IMG/VR virus record: IMGVR_UViG_3300031565_000340
Location: 1-24,903 of that record
Direction: 5' to 3' (one strand)
Source of the DNA: a virus
DNA: 24,903 bases
The notes beneath the pieces are model-generated. The model was not told the origin of the DNA. It made no database searches and saw only the letters and a program-made list of their open reading frames with translations. Of this stretch, positions 464-10,750 are shown piece by piece. The position numbers and the translations under genes were made by a program. Position 1 is the stretch's first letter; every line of letters begins with the position of its first letter.

Positions 464-2409
464 GCCGCTACTGCCTCTTTCTTCTCGGCCACTTCGATTG
501 TCAATTCGCTCATGCCCTTCTCGGCGTACAGCTCGATCACCTGTGACTTCGCTTCCAGGGGCAGGGTCAGACTCTCGGCGTGGTCGATGAAGAGCGGCAC
601 GCTGAGGCCGTAATGCTCCGACAGGACGTTGATGACATCGACGCCGGCCAGGATCTGCTGCCCCGTACTCATATCCGGGTACGGCACACCGTTGAGCATC
701 GCCTCACAGGTTTCGTCAATGGTGCCATTGAGCCGATAATCGAAGAGTTTGAACTGAACGTGCGAGAACAGACCGTTGACCGCCGTTTCGATGAGCCGAC
801 TCTGCGCGGCCTTGTAGTCGGCAAGGTCGGCCAATTGCCGGTCACACTCGGCAATCTTCTGAGCGAGGTCTTTTTCTTTGGCCTCCAACTCCGCGATGCG
901 GGTCTTGTCGGCCTTGGCGCGGTCGGCCTGGGCCAGGGCCGCGTTGACGGCATCGCGTTCTCGCTGGGCTTCATTCTTCCGGCTCTCGATAGCATCCAGT
1001 TGTTCGGTGACGGGGGCGCCGATTTCGGCTTTAGCCTTCTCGATCTGCTCGGTCAGTTTGCACCACTCGGCATCCTGCGTCATATCCGGCTCGGGCCGAT
1101 TCAGAATCGCTGCGTCAATTTCGGCGACACGCTTCCTGCCGGCATCGCACGCGGCCTGGAATTGCTTGTACAGTTCGGCGGCTTTGGTCGAGAGTTGCCG
1201 TTTTTGTAATTGGAAACCGTCAATCTCGGCAGAGCGGTGTTCGACAGTCTCTTTCAACCTGTTAGCAGCCTCTTCGAGTTGGTCGTGTTTAGCCTGTTGT
1301 TCGGCTTTGTTGTCTTCGAGCTTGGCCTTCGGGAGCTTCTGGCCGCAGGCGTAGCAGACCGAGGCGATGTTGACCTTATCGATGGCGTCAATTTCGCCCC
1401 GAGTCCGTTCAAGGTTCTGCTGAACCTGATTCAACTCATGCTGAGCCGTTTCGATACTGGCCTCTATCGACTTAATCTGCCGATGCAGGGCGTTAATCCC
1501 CTCTTCTTTGGCGGCAAGCTCATCATTGATTCTGGCCTTCTCGTCACGGAGGGGCTGCGTCGGGTCCTGCTCGGCCCTTACGATGCTCTCGCGGTGAAGG
1601 CGCTGAACAGTCAGGTGGTTCTCGGCCTCCATTCTCGCCTGCCGGTCTTTTTCTTGACCAAGAAGAATGTTTCGGTCACTATTGAGACTCTGAAATGTTT
1701 GCGTGATATTCTGGCGTTTAACTTGGAGTTTTGAGGTCTCCTGCTCGGCGTAGCCGTTCATGGCACGGCGGATCTCGTCGATGCGCGGGTTGATTTCGTC
1801 CCGCTCTTTGGTATGCCGCACCTTCCGATCGTGCAGAACCTTCCCGTAGTCATTGTAGGACCGGCCATTGACCGAAACCAGCAGGCTCTCGAAGCCCTGG
1901 GGCTTGGCCACCGTGCCGGCGAAGGTCAGCAGCGTCCTTCGCCGTTCGGTGTGGTGGAGCTTGGAGTTGAAGTACGACAGGTCGGCCAGCATCTTGAACG
2001 TCTCCTCGGGAATCAGCGAGTCGATGAATGCTTGGTATTTGCCGACCGTCATGGGGACCTCATTGACCCAGCATAGCGTCTCGTAGCCCTTGAACTGGTC
2101 TTTGACGACCTTCTCGTGCTGCTCTTTGCGGAGCGTGTGCGTCTGACCGTTGGCGGCAATCGTCGCTTCGGACATAACGACCAGGCCCTTGATCGCATGG
2201 TTGTGCTCATCGAGCGGCCTGACCTCGAAGTCCTTGCGCCAAGTAGAGTCTTTACCAAATAACGGCCAGAGCCAGCCATCATAGAGCGTTGTCTTTCCGA
2301 TTCCGTTCTCGGCGTGAATCCGGGCGTTCTGCCCATCCAATGAGACTTCAAAGCGCCGGAGTCCCTTGAAGTTTTCCAACGTCAGATTGAGTAATGTTAG
2401 TGTGTCCAT
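460..2409 (-). CDS. Rad50/SbcC-like SMC-family ATPase with zinc hook
   Basis: A 649-residue protein of SMC/Rad50 layout. The N-terminal half-ATPase has Walker A (NGIGKTT, lysine near residue 39). A long coiled coil follows, interrupted near residue 352 by CYAC, the CxxC zinc hook that joins two Rad50-type molecules. A second coiled coil leads to the C-terminal half-ATPase with a signature-like STGQQ near 580 and Walker B FIDHAES near 606. The family tethers DNA ends and works with a nuclease. No SbcD/Mre11 partner is visible here, but the adjacent RecT-like gene suggests a phage recombination set. I chose the ATG at 2409 because GAAAGGAG lies 6 nt upstream; a longer frame to 2442 would overlap the micro-gene at 2424-2492. 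The protein is shorter than cellular SbcC (about 1000 aa). Confidence 0.85.
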   Translation of the reverse strand: MDTLTLLNLTLENFKGLRRFEVSLDGQNARIHAENGIGKTTLYDGWLWPLFGKDSTWRKDFEVRPLDEHNHAIKGLVVMSEATIAANGQTHTLRKEQHEKVVKDQFKGYETLCWVNEVPMTVGKYQAFIDSLIPEETFKMLADLSYFNSKLHHTERRRTLLTFAGTVAKPQGFESLLVSVNGRSYNDYGKVLHDRKVRHTKERDEINPRIDEIRRAMNGYAEQETSKLQVKRQNITQTFQSLNSDRNILLGQEKDRQARMEAENHLTVQRLHRESIVRAEQDPTQPLRDEKARINDELAAKEEGINALHRQIKSIEASIETAQHELNQVQQNLERTRGEIDAIDKVNIASVCYACGQKLPKAKLEDNKAEQQAKHDQLEEAANRLKETVEHRSAEIDGFQLQKRQLSTKAAELYKQFQAACDAGRKRVAEIDAAILNRPEPDMTQDAEWCKLTEQIEKAKAEIGAPVTEQLDAIESRKNEAQRERDAVNAALAQADRAKADKTRIAELEAKEKDLAQKIAECDRQLADLADYKAAQSRLIETAVNGLFSHVQFKLFDYRLNGTIDETCEAMLNGVPYPDMSTGQQILAGVDVINVLSEHYGLSVPLFIDHAESLTLPLEAKSQVIELYAEKGMSELTIEVAEKKEAVAA

Positions 2410-2423
2410 AGTGTTCTCCTTTC

Positions 2424-2492
2424 TCAGACCGTCCAGAGCCACACCGTGACGCTAAGCAGCCCGATCAACAGTTCCTTGAGTTCTCGTTTCAT
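2424..2492 (-). CDS. 22-aa hydrophobic micropeptide
   Basis: A very short frame beginning MKRELKELLIGLLSVTV and ending WLWTV. Its ATG (2492-2490) overlaps the TGA of the gene at 2489-2818 as ATGA, and its stop lies just before the GAAAGGAG of the ATPase gene. Charged N-terminal residues followed by about 15 hydrophobic ones ending in tryptophans look like a tiny single-pass membrane peptide. The exact coupling on both sides favours real translation. It could instead be a spacer or a coupling leader that keeps ribosomes moving to the ATPase start. No function can be assigned. Confidence 0.4.
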   Translation of the reverse strand: MKRELKELLIGLLSVTVWLWTV

Positions 2493-2818
2493 GGTTTCTT
2501 CGCCTCTATCGCCGCCTTAACAATGTCAACGAACGTCCATCTTCGGACTTTCAGAAACGGTCCCTTATGGTGAGGATCGCTGTAAATGCGCCGCGTGATC
2601 GGGTAGAGATTGTAGAGCCAGAAGCGCAAGGGTTCGTGACTTTGATAGACGGTCAGTTGATAGTGCGTCTGCGCGACCTTCTCAGTCAGTTCCATATCGT
2701 TCTCGAAGGCCAAGTCCGAGGCTTCCTCAAACGTGTCGGTGGAGATTTGACGCCTGCGGTCTTTCTGCCGTCTAACGTATTCGCGGTGTTCTCGGAATGC
2801 GTCGCCCATTTCAGTCAT
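2489..2818 (-). CDS. Conserved-looking phage protein of unknown function (109 aa)
   Basis: I place the start at MTEMGDAF (2818), with GAGGAG about 11 nt upstream; an in-frame TTG seven codons earlier is an alternative. The first 30 residues are highly charged (REHREYVRRQKDRRRQ). The second half is compact: FWLYNLYPITRRIYSDP followed by FLKVRRWTFVDIVKAA, with a spacing of aromatic residues that looks like a small folded domain. I do not recognise a named family. Its 3' end overlaps the 22-aa micro-gene by ATGA, so it belongs to the early operon. Confidence 0.6.
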   Translation of the reverse strand: MTEMGDAFREHREYVRRQKDRRRQISTDTFEEASDLAFENDMELTEKVAQTHYQLTVYQSHEPLRFWLYNLYPITRRIYSDPHHKGPFLKVRRWTFVDIVKAAIEAKKP

Positions 2819-2822
2819 GGCA

Positions 2823-2867
2823 TCACCTGCTCCTCGCAATCTTTACTTGCAGATATGGTTCGGTCAT
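2823..2867 (-). CDS. Possible 14-aa leader peptide
   Basis: A 14-codon frame, MTEPYLQVKIARSR, opens with an ATGA overlap on the stop of the gene at 2864-3184 and closes 5 nt before the start of the 109-aa gene. It contains the GAGGAG ribosome-binding site of that downstream gene. It may simply bridge ribosomes between the two genes. It is listed because the same ATGA arrangement recurs in this operon; the evidence is weak. Confidence 0.2.
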   Translation of the reverse strand: MTEPYLQVKIARSR

Positions 2868-3184
2868 GGGTTTACTCCCAGCCCTTTCTTGGCCAGAGCG
2901 ATGGCGGCGTTAACTCCTCCAATCGCCCTTGCTAATTTATCGCGCATAGTCTGGGTATCGGATACACCGATACTTTCGGCTATGCCAGCGAGATACTCTG
3001 CCCGATTGACCAGTTGGCGGCAGAGGGCTTCCAACTCTCTTTGTCTCTTGCCGATGCGTTCCTCGATCGCGGAAGCGGATTCGGACCAGTTATCTATGAG
3101 ATCACATGAACCACAATACTCACTACCCGAGTCGCCTTCGTGAACGCACGTGTCACATGTATGATGATTCAGTTCGCTGTTCAT
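2864..3184 (-). CDS. Zinc-ribbon-like protein with helical tail (106 aa)
   Basis: The N-terminus holds two CxxC knuckles, CDTC at residues 10-13 and CGSC at 24-27, as in small zinc ribbons. The remainder is a long amphipathic helical stretch (SASAIEERIGKRQRELEALC) followed by a second helical segment ending KKGLGVNP. The ATG (3184) overlaps the stop of the 29-aa micro-gene as ATGA. The last residues match the tail of the 78-aa protein at 3267-3503 at both protein and DNA level, which suggests a partial duplication. No family name is recognised; zinc binding is inferred from the cysteines. Confidence 0.65.
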   Translation of the reverse strand: MNSELNHHTCDTCVHEGDSGSEYCGSCDLIDNWSESASAIEERIGKRQRELEALCRQLVNRAEYLAGIAESIGVSDTQTMRDKLARAIGGVNAAIALAKKGLGVNP

Positions 3185-3270
3185 GGTTCAATCTCCCTTC
3201 CGTCGCCGTCGAACGCCAGTGGCATGAAGAAAGCCGCCAGCATCACCAAAATTGTCTTTAGTAGTTTCAT
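3181..3270 (-). CDS. 29-aa single-pass membrane or secreted micropeptide
   Basis: Reads MKLLKTILVMLAAFFMPLAF followed by DGDGREIEP. Two lysines and a hydrophobic stretch of about 16 residues look like a signal or membrane anchor, followed by an acidic nine-residue tail. The ATG (3270) overlaps the TGA of the 78-aa gene as ATGA, and its own TGA overlaps the ATG of the next gene in the same way. GGGGGA lies 5 nt before the start. A much longer in-frame extension exists upstream but would lie inside the 78-aa gene, so I prefer the short form. Function unknown; possibly a membrane-acting phage peptide. Confidence 0.5.
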   Translation of the reverse strand: MKLLKTILVMLAAFFMPLAFDGDGREIEP

Positions 3271-3503
3271 AATGTCCCCCATGGGTTTACTCCCAGCTTC
3301 TTCGCCTCGGCCAGGTCGATATCGGCGACCAGTTTTTGATAAACACAGCCGCTTGTGATTCGACCATCGCCATTGTCGATTAGTTCTAAACATTGTCGGA
3401 CCGCCTTGCAGTCGTCGAGCAGGGCCGGGGCGGCTTGTTCCAGGCGACAGGCCGGGCAATCGGAATAGAAGGGTGTGTCGCCGACTTTGTGGTTGTGCTC
3501 CAT
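3267..3503 (-). CDS. Small CPAC-motif protein (78 aa)
   Basis: The start at 3503 follows a clear GAAAGGAG site. The N-terminal third contains DCPACRLEQ, a CxxC knuckle near residues 16-19, with two further cysteines at about 32 and 38. The rest is helical and ends EAKKLGVNPWGTL, matching the end of the 106-aa protein at 2864-3184. It may be a zinc-binding or dimerising protein of the early operon. No family is recognised. Confidence 0.6.
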   Translation of the reverse strand: MEHNHKVGDTPFYSDCPACRLEQAAPALLDDCKAVRQCLELIDNGDGRITSGCVYQKLVADIDLAEAKKLGVNPWGTL

Positions 3504-3918: not shown

Positions 3919-3933
3919 TTTCGTCCTTTCAAA

Positions 3934-4003
3934 AGCCGGGCGTGGGGCTCCATCCCCGCCAGCCTGTTCGAGGCGGCTGTTCGTCCGTGTCACGTGCCCG
4001 GCT
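3934..4003 (-). ncRNA. Multi-branched structured leader element, 70 nt
   Basis: The outer strands AGCCGGGC and GCCCGGCT pair over 8 bp. They enclose a central hairpin (GCC-G-CCT with AGG-CT-GGC) and a GGGG/CCCC hairpin, giving a branched, cloverleaf-like fold of tRNA size. It lacks a TTCRA T-loop, so I do not call it a tRNA. It ends directly at TTTTGAAAGGA, the ribosome-binding site of the gene at 3757-3918, so it could control translation or protect the message end. Pairing was worked out by eye. Confidence 0.4.
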
Positions 4004-4017
4004 ATTTACTTTTCAAA

Positions 4018-4055
4018 AGCCCAGACCCCCATGCCGAGGCGCAAGGGCCGGGACT
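4018..4055 (-). terminator. GC-rich intergenic hairpin followed by U-run
   Basis: Directly downstream of the 87-aa gene. AGTCC/GGGCT and GGCCC/GGGTC form a two-part stem, with the apical loop beginning TTGCG, followed by TTTTG. This resembles an intrinsic terminator or message-end hairpin. Similar hairpins follow several other small genes in the window. Confidence 0.45.
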
Positions 4056-4060
4056 GAACA

Positions 4061-4647: not shown

Positions 4648-4719
4648 TGGCGGGTGCCGGGATCGAACCGACCTAATCGGCTTATGAGACCGCCCAATTC
4701 ACCAGAATTGTAACCCGCG
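4648..4719 (-). tRNA. tRNA with CAU anticodon (Met, initiator-like or Ile2)
   Basis: All four arms can be drawn: acceptor CGCGGGT/ACCCGCC (6 of 7 pairs), a D arm with CAAT/ATTG and a GG in the loop, an anticodon loop CTCATAA with U33 and A37, a 4-nt variable loop, and T arm GTCGG-TTCGATC-CCGGC. The 3' CCA is not encoded. The first acceptor pair is C1 x C72, a mismatch; absence of a 1:72 pair is the hallmark of bacterial initiator tRNA, although the three G-C pairs of its anticodon stem are not all present here (position 31-39 is U-G). The anticodon could also be lysidine-modified to read AUA isoleucine. It lies inside the early operon, 21 nt after the excisionase-like gene. Confidence 0.7.
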
Positions 4720-5987: not shown

Positions 5988-6031
5988 ACGCCCGTAGCTC
6001 AGTAGGATAGAGCGTCGGTTTCCTAAACCGA
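5988..6031 (+). other. 5' half of tRNA-Arg(CCU): candidate attachment core
   Basis: ACGCCCG, TA, D stem GCTC, D loop AGTAGGATA, GAGC, then anticodon arm TCGGT-TTCCTAA-ACCGA are all intact, giving anticodon CCU. The sequence stops resembling a tRNA after position 43: no variable loop, T arm or matching acceptor strand follows. The integrase starts 83 bp downstream in the same direction. This fits a phage attachment site whose core is the anticodon arm, but here the 5' rather than the usual 3' half of the tRNA is carried. Confidence 0.65.
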
Positions 6032-6077
6032 ATTTTGAGGCTTTAAGTAGTTGCAGTTGAAAGACTTAGTAAAACAT

Positions 6078-6095
6078 GGGTCGCGTTTGGGGCGC
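6078..6095 (+). repeat. 18-bp direct repeat, copy 2 (candidate integrase arm site)
   Basis: Exact second copy of the repeat at 5885-5902, placed between the tRNA half and the integrase start codon. Similarity extends a few bases beyond the core (CATG before, TTT after). Binding of integrase here could also repress its own gene. Confidence 0.55.
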
Positions 6096-6113
6096 TTTTG
6101 GAGGCACTTTGGA

Positions 6114-7127
6114 ATGAAACGAATACGCATCTATAAGAGGCCGGATCGTCCGGGCTGGCACGTCAGTTGGCGAGAGGACGGCAAGGAACACAAAAGAAGC
6201 TTCCCGAACAAGAAGCTCGCCGACCATTACGCCCAGGTGAAATACGCGGAGCTGAACAGCGGCGTCTTTCGCTCCGTCATCGACATGGCTTGGCCGGATC
6301 TCGTTGCGGAGTACGCCCGGACCTACGATGTCCGGCGACTGACGCCCGCGGCCAAATATGAGGGAACTCTCACGTTGAGGCATTTTGCAAGCCTGGTTGG
6401 CCCTGTGAGCTCTCAAAAGATTAGGCAGGGTATAATTGATGCTTTCCTGTTGGCCCGTATGGAGGCCGTGGGTGAATGGACGCTAAATAAAGAGATTGCG
6501 AACCTTCGGGCCTTTCTCCGGTGGGCCAAGAAACGCCGGTATGTCGGCGGCGATTTGGAAGTCGAGAAGGTCAAGGCCACGCCCCGGCTGGTAATGAGCC
6601 TGACGGACGCCCAGGTGCGAAACCTGCTGATTGCCGCCCGGAACCGCAGCGACTGCTGGTACGTGAGGGTCCTCTTGGCCCTAACCACCGGGCTTCGAAG
6701 CAAGGACATCGACCGCCTCAGCGTCCAGGACATCGACTTCGAGAACCACGCCGTCCTTACGCGGTCGAAGAAAACCCGCAAGGCGATGGCGGCCCGGCCG
6801 CTGCACTCCTTCATTGTCCCGGTGCTGGCCCGCTATGTGGCCGAGTTTCCAGCCGGCCAGGTCGGGCTGCTGGCCGGCGACTCGAATACGCACAAGAAAT
6901 GGAAGGCAATCCGGCAGCGGGCGGGACTGCCGGATCTGAGGTTCCACGACTTGCGCTCCGTGTTCTCGACCGCCCTGCAGGCGCGAGACGTGCCGCTGTC
7001 CGTCGTCCAGACTCTGCTCGAACACAGCTCGCCGGCGCTCACGGCGAAGACCTATACGAACGCAGACCCACTGCTGGCACCCGCCGTTGAGCGATTGCCC
7101 GTCGCGCAGTGGCTTGAATCCCTTTAG
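6114..7127 (+). CDS. int: Tyrosine-family phage integrase
   Basis: A 337-residue site-specific recombinase. The N-terminal ~45 residues (IRIYKRPDRPGWHVSW...) are an arm-binding-like beta domain. Residues ~60-155 form the core-binding SAM-like domain, and 160-337 the catalytic domain. The catalytic set is visible: Arg195 in TGLRSKDI, lysine near 219 in RSKKTRK, His278-x2-Arg281 in FHDLRS, His304 in LLEHSS and nucleophile Tyr314 in KTYTNAD. I chose the ATG at 6114 because GGAGG lies 9 nt upstream; an in-frame TTG at 6051 would read through the direct repeat. It lies just downstream of the tRNA half, as expected for an integrase beside its attachment site. Confidence 0.93.
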   Translation: MKRIRIYKRPDRPGWHVSWREDGKEHKRSFPNKKLADHYAQVKYAELNSGVFRSVIDMAWPDLVAEYARTYDVRRLTPAAKYEGTLTLRHFASLVGPVSSQKIRQGIIDAFLLARMEAVGEWTLNKEIANLRAFLRWAKKRRYVGGDLEVEKVKATPRLVMSLTDAQVRNLLIAARNRSDCWYVRVLLALTTGLRSKDIDRLSVQDIDFENHAVLTRSKKTRKAMAARPLHSFIVPVLARYVAEFPAGQVGLLAGDSNTHKKWKAIRQRAGLPDLRFHDLRSVFSTALQARDVPLSVVQTLLEHSSPALTAKTYTNADPLLAPAVERLPVAQWLESL

Positions 7128-8055: not shown

Positions 8056-8093
8056 TGTACCAACTCCTTATCGCTTTGGTGAAGCGGTTAAAA

Positions 8094-8131
8094 GCCCCGG
8101 CCCCCGGGACGCGCCAAGGGGGCGGGGCCGG
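8094..8131 (-). terminator. Very GC-rich hairpin with U-run after the 333-aa gene
   Basis: GCCCCG-CCCCC pairs with GGGGG-(C)-CGGGGC and is followed by TTTTAA. The loop begins TTGGCGCG. It looks like an intrinsic terminator 9 nt after the stop of the gene at 8140-9141, possibly partial because a gene with its own good ribosome-binding site follows. Confidence 0.6.
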
Positions 8132-8139
8132 TAGAAAGC

Positions 8140-9141
8140 CTATTCACTTACGCGACACGCATACTCGCGCGTCAGATTACGTCCGTGCCACGCCTGCGTG
8201 ACTTGCAGGCTCTTGCGCTCGATTTGGGCGTCACACTCCTCGCACTGGCCTTTGTGCACCCGCACTGCGATTTGGGCATCTGGCATCAATTTTTCCGCGC
8301 GCGACACAGCGGCATAATCCGCCGCCGTCCACTCGTCGCAATATTCGGCCTCGAATACAGACCGATGGTCGCAACAATCCTCATCGTGGTCGATGTCCTG
8401 GGCCTGGAGTCGGTCATAGCGAGGCCAGCGGGCCTGATCGCCCATCGCCGCGAATACGTGATCGTGGACGATGGTGTTGATTTCGGCCGCCGGCAACCGT
8501 CCCAGCTCCAGCCGTCCGAGCTGGGACTCCGTGCCGATCTCTCGCACCAGCGCCTCACACGCCTCAGCGTAGAGCCGCTCACTTTCCTTTTTGGCAGCCT
8601 CCTCCTCGGCTCGTTTCCGCTCGCGCTCGGCATGCTGGTCGATAACCGCCTGGATCGTAGCCTGATTCTGGGCCTCGAGCTCGGCCGTCCACGCCGCATA
8701 TTCGGCGGCGCACTCCTCCGGCAGATATGCCACGTCCATGTCTGGATTGACCAGATTATTGACGTATCCACCTACGGCTTGCACATACTGCTGCCCCTTC
8801 CTCACGCGCCGCTCGCGCAGACCGGTCACGGCTCGCTCTGTCTGCTTCTGCCTGTATGCTGCAGCATCGACCTTCTGCTCCGCCCGCTTCGCCAGGGTGG
8901 CCTGGATGACTGCCCGTACCGCCTCCAGGTCCGCCGTCGGTACATAGAGCGAACTGCCGTGACCGCCCGCGAAATAACGGGCCCGGCCGTCCACACCGGG
9001 CAGCTCATCCGCGAGTACCGCTCGCTCCTGCTCCGTGAGGGATTCGAGCCACTCTTGGGTTAGCTCCAAATCCTGCGGTCCGTGAGTAGTCGAGTTGCGG
9101 CGGATTGCGTCGGCTGCTGATACATTGACTTTTACGTACAT
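8140..9141 (-). CDS. Coiled-coil protein of unknown function (333 aa)
   Basis: Starts MYVKVNVSAADAIRRNSTTH at 9141 with AAGAGG upstream. Residues ~75-195 are alanine-, glutamate- and arginine-rich and helical (AERERKRAEEEAAKKESERL), suggesting a coiled coil. The C-terminal third is cysteine-rich: CCDH near 256, then QCEEC near 303-307 and a final cysteine, a possible zinc site. HHPRED-type homology cannot be judged by eye and I do not recognise the family. It is the longest gene of the 9532-7786 operon and lies behind two small ATG-loop hairpins. A role in replication or host takeover is possible, not shown. Confidence 0.65.
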   Translation of the reverse strand: MYVKVNVSAADAIRRNSTTHGPQDLELTQEWLESLTEQERAVLADELPGVDGRARYFAGGHGSSLYVPTADLEAVRAVIQATLAKRAEQKVDAAAYRQKQTERAVTGLRERRVRKGQQYVQAVGGYVNNLVNPDMDVAYLPEECAAEYAAWTAELEAQNQATIQAVIDQHAERERKRAEEEAAKKESERLYAEACEALVREIGTESQLGRLELGRLPAAEINTIVHDHVFAAMGDQARWPRYDRLQAQDIDHDEDCCDHRSVFEAEYCDEWTAADYAAVSRAEKLMPDAQIAVRVHKGQCEECDAQIERKSLQVTQAWHGRNLTREYACRVSE

Positions 9142-9193: not shown

Positions 9194-9222
9194 GGCGTAA
9201 TGTGGTTGTGATGTCACACAAG

Positions 9223-9260
9223 GCCCCGGGCCGGAGTCGAACCGGCGAGCCGGACGGGGC
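9223..9260 (-). ncRNA. tRNA-like minihelix (acceptor plus T arm), 38 nt
   Basis: GCCCCGT pairs with CCGGGGC (6 of 7), and within it GCCGG-TTCGACT-CCGGC is a perfect T arm with the canonical TTCGACT loop; only 7 nt link the two on the 5' side. The D and anticodon arms are absent. The element lies 14 nt after the stop of the 85-aa gene. It could be a degenerate tRNA, an RNase P or tRNA-enzyme substrate mimic, or a plain message-end hairpin. Confidence 0.4.
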
Positions 9261-9274
9261 TGGCAAATGCTTAG

Positions 9275-9532
9275 TCACTCACGCGGATACGGATATGCCC
9301 GCAGAGTGGGATGCACAGGGCGACCAGTGGGATGGCGCGAGCAAAAGTCGCTAAATGCTTCCTCGGTGAATGGCAGGACTTCTGTCGCAGCGTCGCTGCA
9401 AGCGCGGGAAATGCGGCAAATCTCATCGTCGGCCAAGTCGCCCATCACCGCGTTGACCTGCGTACAGGTGATCAGAATAGTCCCGGTGGGCGTGGCGGAC
9501 ATTACCATACGTTCATTTCGATTAGCTTTCAT
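9275..9532 (-). CDS. Hypothetical protein with structured leader (85 aa)
   Basis: Starts MKANRNERMVMSATPTGTIL at 9532 after AAAGGGTAGC, a leader sequence shared with three other genes in the window. The middle is acidic with cysteines (LADDEICRISRACSDAATEV), and the C-terminus is proline- and arginine-rich. No domain is recognised. It is the first gene of an operon whose promoter is almost 400 bp upstream at 9918-9946, so it has a long leader RNA with alternative folds. Function unknown. Confidence 0.6.
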   Translation of the reverse strand: MKANRNERMVMSATPTGTILITCTQVNAVMGDLADDEICRISRACSDAATEVLPFTEEAFSDFCSRHPTGRPVHPTLRAYPYPRE

Positions 9533-9917
9533 TTTGCTACCCTTTCGATTTGAGCATTATCGCTCAATGCTCTGAGCGGGAGTCGAACCCGCAAGCCGCT
9601 CAAACGTCGAGCAGCTCCCGGCAGAGCGATGCGTTTTGTTTTTCACTTACCGCGATGCCGTCCCGGTCCCGCTATCAAACGTCCGCCGGCTCAAGCGTGG
9701 CCGACCCGTATGACAGCGCCGTGAGCCGAGGTCTCGGCTCGTCGTGGCGTGCATCTCAGAATTCGAGGCTTGCGATTTGTTTCGCTTCTCGGGTTCACCA
9801 GAGCGTGTTTTGCTATGGCGTTTGCCCTACCGGCACCCGTAACTCGGACCTGACCTCTTTGCTTCCTTTTGGCCCCGTGTCTTATTAACTTTTCAATTGA
9901 TCATTTATTCTGTATGT
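9533..9917 (-). ncRNA. Long 5' leader RNA of the 9532 operon
   Basis: Between the promoter and the first start codon lie about 380 nt without a convincing gene. The promoter-distal end (9552-9630) holds a tRNA-like element and competing helices. A strong hairpin GAGCCGAG-GT-CTCGGCTC lies at 9723-9740 (plus-strand reading). The open frame on the plus strand here has no ribosome-binding site and looks like the antisense reading of tRNA-like sequence. The part from 9745 to 9900 shows no structure I can name. Confidence 0.35.
9552..9630 (-). promoter_or_regulatory. Leader switch region with mutually exclusive helices
   Basis: Three pairings compete. A: GCTCTG (9627-9622) with CAGAGC (9574-9569) closes a 59-nt tRNA-like element containing a T arm GCGGG-TTCGACT-CCCGC and an anticodon-like arm TGCTC/GAGCG. 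B: ATCGCTC (9630-9624) with GAGCGAT (9565-9559). C: GAGCATT with AATGCTC, a perfect 7-bp hairpin at 9572-9552 just before the AAAGGG site. A and B share GCTC; A and C share GAGC; B uses the loop of C. This is the geometry of an attenuator or riboswitch-like control element. Confidence 0.4.
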
Positions 9918-9952
9918 ATTATCGACTATATCTTATGGTTTGTCCATAAGAT
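9918..9952 (-). promoter_or_regulatory. Promoter of the 9532 operon with palindromic operator
   Basis: On the minus strand TGGACA (9946-9941), 17 nt, GATAAT (9923-9918): one mismatch from consensus in each box. A perfect 9-bp inverted repeat with a 5-nt spacer, ATCTTATGG-N5-CCATAAGAT (9930-9952), covers the -35 box and spacer. Its core CTTATGG-N5-CCATAAG has the same layout as the operator at 5170-5188. Confidence 0.7.
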
Positions 9953-10424: not shown

Positions 10425-10437
10425 GCTTGCTCCAAAA

Positions 10438-10475
10438 ACCCCGGCCCGGCGGCGCAACGGCACACCGGGCGGGGT
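10438..10475 (-). terminator. GC-rich hairpin followed by U5
   Basis: ACCCC-G-CCCGG pairs with CCGGG-C-CGGGGT around a loop containing GCCGTTGCGCC, then TTTTT. It has the form of an intrinsic terminator between the 62-aa gene and the XRE-like gene. It is nearly identical in sequence to the hairpin at 10706-10741. Confidence 0.65.
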
Positions 10476-10482
10476 TAAAAAT

Positions 10483-10671: not shown

Positions 10672-10705
10672 TTTCCTACCCTTTCTTTCTCACTGGTTTC
10701 ATAAC

Positions 10706-10741
10706 ACCCGGCCCGGCGGCGCAACGGCCAACCGGGCGGGT
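10706..10741 (-). other. GC-rich intergenic hairpin, sister of 10438-10475
   Basis: ACCCG-CCCGG pairs with CCGGG-C-CGGGT around a loop with GGC-CGTTGC-GCC. It shares a long stretch of identical sequence with the hairpin at 10438-10475 but is followed by GTTATG instead of a U-run, so it is less likely to terminate. It lies 9 nt after the stop of the 63-aa gene. Confidence 0.55.
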
Positions 10742-10750
10742 AGAAAATGC

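Follow-up and report, generated by a model that had tools for sequence, protein, structure and literature searches.

Two short stretches on the minus strand of a phage genome would fold into tRNA-like shapes with parts missing. Are they tRNA genes in decay, or selected mimics that serve the phage as RNA? The window analyzed here is the entire IMG/VR virus record (24,903 nt), which is laid out as tail genes on the minus strand, an early region, and an integrase at 6051-7127 on the plus strand. A preliminary description, made from the sequence of this window, had listed a full tRNA and two reduced forms, and had offered decay, message cutting and decoy functions as explanations. Here, the three structures were re-examined, similar elements were sought in other genomes, and the possible roles were weighed.

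Three tRNA-like structures in the window

A descriptor comprising a T loop (TTCRANY), a 5-bp T stem and a 7-nt acceptor with at least 6 pairs returned exactly three matches in the window, all on the minus strand (Table 1). The mean over 200 dinucleotide shuffles was 0.09, and no shuffle reached two. The three structures of the preliminary description are thus present, and the one it named a full CAU tRNA is indeed called as such. Both reduced elements carry an acceptor helix and a T arm in a 12-bp stack; all 5 bp of the T stem are paired, and the loop reads TTCGACT. The 38-nt minihelix reads GCCCCG TCCGGCTC GCCGG TTCGACT CCGGC C CGGGGC, and the 59-nt form reads GCTCTG CCGGGA [GCTGCTCGACGTTTGAGCGGC] TT GCGGG TTCGACT CCCGC T CAGAGC. 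In isolation, the 59-mer folds as earlier described (-30.5 kcal/mol, z -2.6); in context, the 3' strand of its acceptor has an alternative partner in a downstream hairpin. For the 38-mer, the nearest-neighbor minimum is another hairpin, at -19.3 versus -18.3 kcal/mol for the tRNA-like fold, energies that leave out tertiary D-loop/T-loop contacts.

Table 1 Positions of the structures and neighboring features.
Feature	Position	Strand	Basis or remark
tRNA, anticodon CAU	4648-4719	-	ARAGORN; Rfam RF00005, 35.5 bits (gathering 29); intergenic slot of the same kind
38-nt minihelix: acceptor, GG linker, T arm	9223-9260	-	Descriptor scan; model R1
59-nt long-insert form: acceptor, GG-containing linker, extra hairpin, T arm	9569-9627	-	Descriptor scan; fold
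Small hairpin TTGTG-TGACAT-CACAA, directly 3' of the 38-nt element	9206-9221	-	Fold
7-bp hairpin 3' of the 59-nt element, overlapping and competing with its acceptor 3' strand	9552-9572	-	Fold
Cloverleaf-shaped fourth element without T loop, 75 nt, intergenic	3930-4004	-	MFE fold
85-aa gene, function not assigned	9275-9532	-	Between the 59-nt and 38-nt elements
333-aa gene, function not assigned	8140-9141	-	Downstream of the 38-nt element
Sigma-70-like promoter candidate for the leader holding the 59-nt element	9918-9946	-	Consensus match 10/12
Unannotated 105-nt tRNA-like structure upstream of gene 89	D29 record 47980-48084 (= L304 2981-3085)	-	Sequence comparison

The 38-mer starts 14 nt past the stop codon of the 85-aa gene. 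Between the end of the 59-mer and the ATG of that same gene (at 9532) there are 36 nt; this element lies in a leader and not between two recognizable genes. Each is followed by a small hairpin, as are many of the related elements described below in the Gordonia phages VanLee and Morgana and in genome G003. The window phage holds two such elements only, and its remaining gaps contain different hairpins or none. The cloverleaf-shaped element has four arms and an 8-bp acceptor-like stem in its MFE fold, followed by CTTTTGAAAGG, and is preceded by another hairpin at 4017-4060. In the gaps 10436-10480, 10700-10748 and 8085-8139 (-) there are bulged, GC-rich hairpins whose 3' side has a similar 5+1+6 stack; they have no T loop, some are followed by T-runs, and two share CCCGGCGGCGCAACGGC.

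The reduced elements were compared with known classes. Neither was reported as a canonical tRNA by ARAGORN or by RF00005 at gathering, and ARAGORN found no tmRNA in the window. No Rfam 15 family matched at its gathering score, the only matches being to tRNA and sub-threshold or chance ones. No T-run follows either element, and neither is among the predicted minus-strand terminators of the window, whose other gap hairpins do carry 4-5 T. An integrase attachment site was also considered for the reduced elements and set aside: the integrase lies more than 2 kb away, with an attP-like tRNA piece of its own. That piece, at 5988-6061 (+) just upstream of the integrase gene, is the 5' half of a tRNA-Arg(CCU)-like gene (22.6 bits to RF00005) and is the probable attP core.

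The nearest relative of the window phage, IMGVR_UViG_3300031566_000108, departs from it at window 481-956 alone; it has the same sequence across both reduced elements and is therefore of no use for testing covariation. More distant relatives identified by tail proteins (L011 and L012) have a different early region and no elements. A tail-protein scan of genome contigs returned no relative, and megablast against phages returned no match. Two further observations concern the sister contig (L009), which is otherwise near-identical to the window. More than 90 differences separate the two within 481-956 of the window, inside an SbcC-like gene, which makes this stretch an apparent recombination tract. 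At 2335-3500 of the sister contig, a helicase gene appears to be interrupted by an intein-like insertion, with a splice-like CLDG start and an NTT end.

A family of minihelices in phage gene gaps

A first scan used the 24-mer made up of the T arm and 3' acceptor strand of the 38-nt element. Nine further loci matched, only one of which is an ARAGORN tRNA; several of the others lie in gene gaps and have a matching strand, CCCCG, 8-12 nt 5' of the T arm. The genomes of these loci, together with VanLee and Morgana, were found to hold up to 12-16 elements each, as against 0-2 in shuffles. The shared layout is a 6-bp acceptor, a short linker with a D-loop-like GG, a 5-6-bp T stem and a canonical T loop. 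With no stack length imposed, the strand between the T loop and the 3' end measured 12 nt in 45 of 61 matches, a set that includes a few true tRNAs, 13 nt in 10 and 11 nt in 4. The resulting stack of ~12 bp has the length of the tRNA acceptor/T stack but is split 6+6 instead of 7+5. The nucleotide at N-1 is mostly A and RCCA is not encoded, while N73 is A or G and N74 is C in most members, features absent from the AT-rich ones. In longer members, the GG and the T arm are separated by an inserted hairpin, and the 59-nt element is laid out in this way.

Viral contigs in IMG/VR were then searched with the pattern GCCCYG-N10-20-GGTTCRANTCCNNNNCRGGGC, in which three T-stem pairs are left free. It matched 107 stretches, with 59 distinct non-tRNA sequences among the fetched loci, and the letter-reversed pattern over the same search gave 0 matches. 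The three free pairs are formed in 59, 58 and 56 of the 59 sequences (shuffle means 23-25, maxima 36-40), and pair 5:68 covaries (CG 36, TA 20, TG 2, CA 1). In 56 of these sequences the linker GG stands at offset 2-4 after the acceptor, where G18G19 of the D loop would fall, compared with 23% for shuffled linkers. Of 63 T arms picked regardless of the acceptor, 46 are closed by a perfect 6-bp helix within 40 nt, versus a mean of 16.4 and a maximum of 23 with permuted partners. In an alignment of 47 sequences, 96.6% of cells are paired and 125 double changes occur; none of 500 shuffles reach this, and slid controls give 38-53%.

A covariance model built from this alignment (R1) scores 9223-9260 at 48.6 bits (E 1.3e-6), a score that is partly by construction, since the window sequence is a member of the alignment. 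Independent support for the membership of the 38-mer comes from 38-nt sequences that closely resemble it and show compensatory changes, in L151 in the acceptor and in L146 in the T stem; they are located on AT-rich contigs (38-46% G+C) with no protein homology to the window phage. On the 59-nt element, R1 aligns the T-arm part alone (22.9 bits); the layout of this element equals that of long-insert members in G003, G007 and VanLee. We conclude that the 38-nt minihelix belongs to a widespread, selected phage RNA family whose existence, judged by comparing sequences, is near certain.

The hosts of the carrier phages include actinobacteria and Bacteroides. None of the 16 elements checked in VanLee falls within a gene, whereas a 45-mer placed at random would be outside genes 13% of the time, and 16 of the 17 early minus-strand gaps of at least 60 nt hold exactly one element. 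Twelve of the 16 begin 2-22 nt past a stop codon, and nine end 46-51 nt before the next start, about 47 nt being usual. Mycobacteriophage Konstantine has an element in 8 of 11 gaps, most of them starting 6-12 nt past a stop, with 45-53 nt left to the next start. The elements of both phages lie between co-directional genes, in one orientation relative to transcription. Four related Gordonia phages retain the element in syntenic gaps, while the sequence on either side of it has diverged. Single or few copies are present in Microbacterium phage Appa, Gordonia phage Trine, a Bacteroides fragilis phage and a saliva phage, and phiC31 has one possible element at ~31,490. The element is rare in cellular genomes: the seven whole genomes searched have 0-3 copies each.

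Several individual loci were also recorded. Trine has three tandem minihelices ~115 nt apart (L297 6771-7041), two of them inside annotated gp40; the first overlaps the gp40 start, and that start is therefore probably miscalled. One to three minihelix copies are found on each of a set of Streptomyces, Nonomuraea and Herbidospora genome contigs (L178-L255), in regions consisting mostly of genes without assigned function and one SSB. VanLee additionally encodes a YrlA-like Y RNA (L038 15329-15557, +; 47 bits, below gathering) that adjoins a Ro-like gene and a tRNA-Arg. A model search of 150 genomes from the class of a Phycisphaerae bin returned no element and, having no positive control, shows little. 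Matches on archaeal genome contigs were set aside as mostly inside tRNAs, as was one in Acidovorax AP1, a tRNA-Leu-like half beside its integrase.

Possible roles in phage transcripts

Compensatory changes, which the preliminary description had proposed to look for in related phages, were thus found, and together with recurrence in unrelated phages and stereotyped placing between co-directional genes they support its suggestion that the reduced elements are selected mimics. Among its alternatives, mimicry for message cutting is, we infer, the best supported. The reading we somewhat favor is that the elements are cis-acting, tRNA-mimicking signals that punctuate phage operons by directing both processing and stabilization; the fold is what is observed, and cutting is what it may lead to. 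The fold would rebuild the tRNA elbow in the nascent mRNA and would therefore be recognized by host enzymes that measure the distance from elbow to end. RNase P may act at the 5' end, while at the 3' end RNase Z, a 3' trimming activity or the CCA enzyme may cut or stop; alternatively, the element could block 3' exonucleases. The expected outcome is the separation of neighboring cistrons, with compact structured ends that would resist exonucleases. RNase P is known to bind the stack of T arm and acceptor, to clamp the elbow and to measure a fixed distance from it (PMC4919913), and its substrates include tmRNA, viral tRNA-like structures, phage RNAs and polycistronic mRNA (PMC11143913). A broader proposal, plausible but held more tentatively, is that minimal tRNA mimics serve as universal punctuation in many unrelated phages, one per gap, with host RNase P and/or tRNA 3'-end enzymes splitting long early transcripts into end-protected mRNAs. 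Several points speak against processing: the 6+6 rather than 7+5 stack, the prevalence of A at N-1, the missing RCCA, the tRNA-like fold of the 38-mer lying 1 kcal/mol above the MFE, and the presence of only two elements in the window phage.

A possible parallel is found in cluster A phages. In D29 and five related phages, a tRNA-like structure of the 105-nt class precedes the first early gene by 33-51 nt, and its T stem and D arm show compensatory changes among relatives; this is a larger tRNA-like structure, not a minihelix. The 3' end of the D29 copy is 49 nt upstream of gene 89 and ~522 nt past the predicted Pleft start, a start estimated from the -35 box. For L5, ~90% of leader transcripts end 482-532 nt past the mapped start with no terminator seen, and smaller products have their 5' end in common; the authors of that study speak of termination (PMC5712189). 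When D29 coordinates are joined to the L5 data by homology, there is a hint that the structure sits where the abundant L5 leader RNA ends. Such a match would fit RNase P, RNase Z or a simple 3'-exonuclease block alike.

The elements may instead remain uncut, as a stable mRNA knot or a site for an elbow-recognizing factor (the ribosome L1 stalk, EF-Tu, TruB, or a phage or Ro-like protein) that insulates or tunes translation or decay of the neighboring gene. We consider this possible but rather unlikely: constant spacing to the next start and from the stop, the second short hairpin that often follows, and the presence in VanLee of a Ro-like protein gene and a YrlA-like RNA are consistent with it, but a plain hairpin would need no T loop, D-loop-like GG or 12-bp ruler, and no phage gene is common to the carriers examined. 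Mimicry of the acceptor and T arm, and many copies per genome in some phages, would suit an excised small RNA that, as a sponge, titrates tRNA end-processing or tRNA-targeting defenses in trans. Such an RNA would not be expected to occur as one copy per gap at fixed distances from genes, and many genomes have a single copy. The suggestion that the elements are decoys for tRNA-targeting defenses found no support, because an anticodon arm is lacking in the commonest form and the elements are located inside operons, and we regard excision as improbable.

Decaying tRNA genes or attachment-site remnants are very unlikely to explain the two elements. The window does contain a true tRNA and an attP-like tRNA-Arg half, and the Acidovorax AP1 match beside an integrase resembled a tRNA-Leu-type attachment-site half. 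Against this, the same reduced geometry, covariation and gap placing recur in phages without protein homology, and both acceptor strands are retained; the earlier suggestion of decay was not borne out, because a reduced form of fixed geometry is found in many phages without a matching tRNA. We give similarly little credence to an element acting as DNA, such as a protein-binding inverted repeat, a promoter part or an intrinsic terminator. Inverted repeats do occur in gaps, and the ESAS repeats of cluster K have been read as DNA sites (PMC3203893), but compensatory base-pair changes, the conserved T loop, the lack of a T-run after the two window elements and the single orientation relative to transcription all argue for RNA.

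Significance and comparison with known systems

The elements appear to be unannotated in the records examined, and a full-text literature search, with preprints and most subscription papers outside its scope, found no description of them. In some well-studied phages, most early gene gaps are filled by this conserved, non-Rfam RNA family. If its members act as processing signals, the operon maps of phages will have to be reinterpreted, as will transcript ends and expression levels, and a 38-nt natural operon insulator would become available for synthetic biology. The broader proposal, if true, would reveal a general, unrecognized layer of phage gene expression and would provide a mechanism by which the toxic leader RNA of L5/D29-like phages, the most abundant cluster A RNA, acquires its 3' end. 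The family also opens to direct test the question of whether phage mRNAs are generally processed by host RNase P.

tRNA-like RNA inside transcripts is already known; on the records and literature covered here, the multi-copy, minimal, gap-filling phage version is new. In tRNA punctuation, tRNAs in mitochondrial transcripts and t-elements in plant mitochondria define mRNA ends. The phage elements similarly are tRNA-like and lie between genes, but they have no D stem and usually no anticodon arm, and their cutting is presumed. The tRNA-like domain of tmRNA consists of an acceptor, a D loop without stem, an optional helix and a T arm. The 59-nt form shares this layout, but the window elements have no mRNA-like part, no encoded CCA and no G3-U70 pair, which is needed for alanylation. 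The YrlA Y RNA (RF02553) also contains a tRNA-mimicking module; unlike the minihelices, it is a separate gene beside Ro, and the VanLee minihelices are unmatched by RF02553.

RNase P cuts tRNA-like or hairpin RNA in the his operon mRNA and in the phage M3 and C4 RNAs (PMC11143913). Those are single cases, whereas the minihelices form a family, defined by T loop and GG linker, in many phages. The SAS/ESAS of cluster K are likewise repeated intergenic inverted repeats upstream of starts, but their authors report little support for RNA pairing and no tRNA likeness (PMC3203893); ESAS, CaiB repeats and HF2 intergenic repeats were considered as the same thing and rejected. The leader RNA from Pleft of cluster A phages (PMC5712189) is comparable in that the D29-like element has a 6-bp acceptor and lies ~50 nt before the first gene, although at 105 nt it is longer than the minihelices and has more complete arms.
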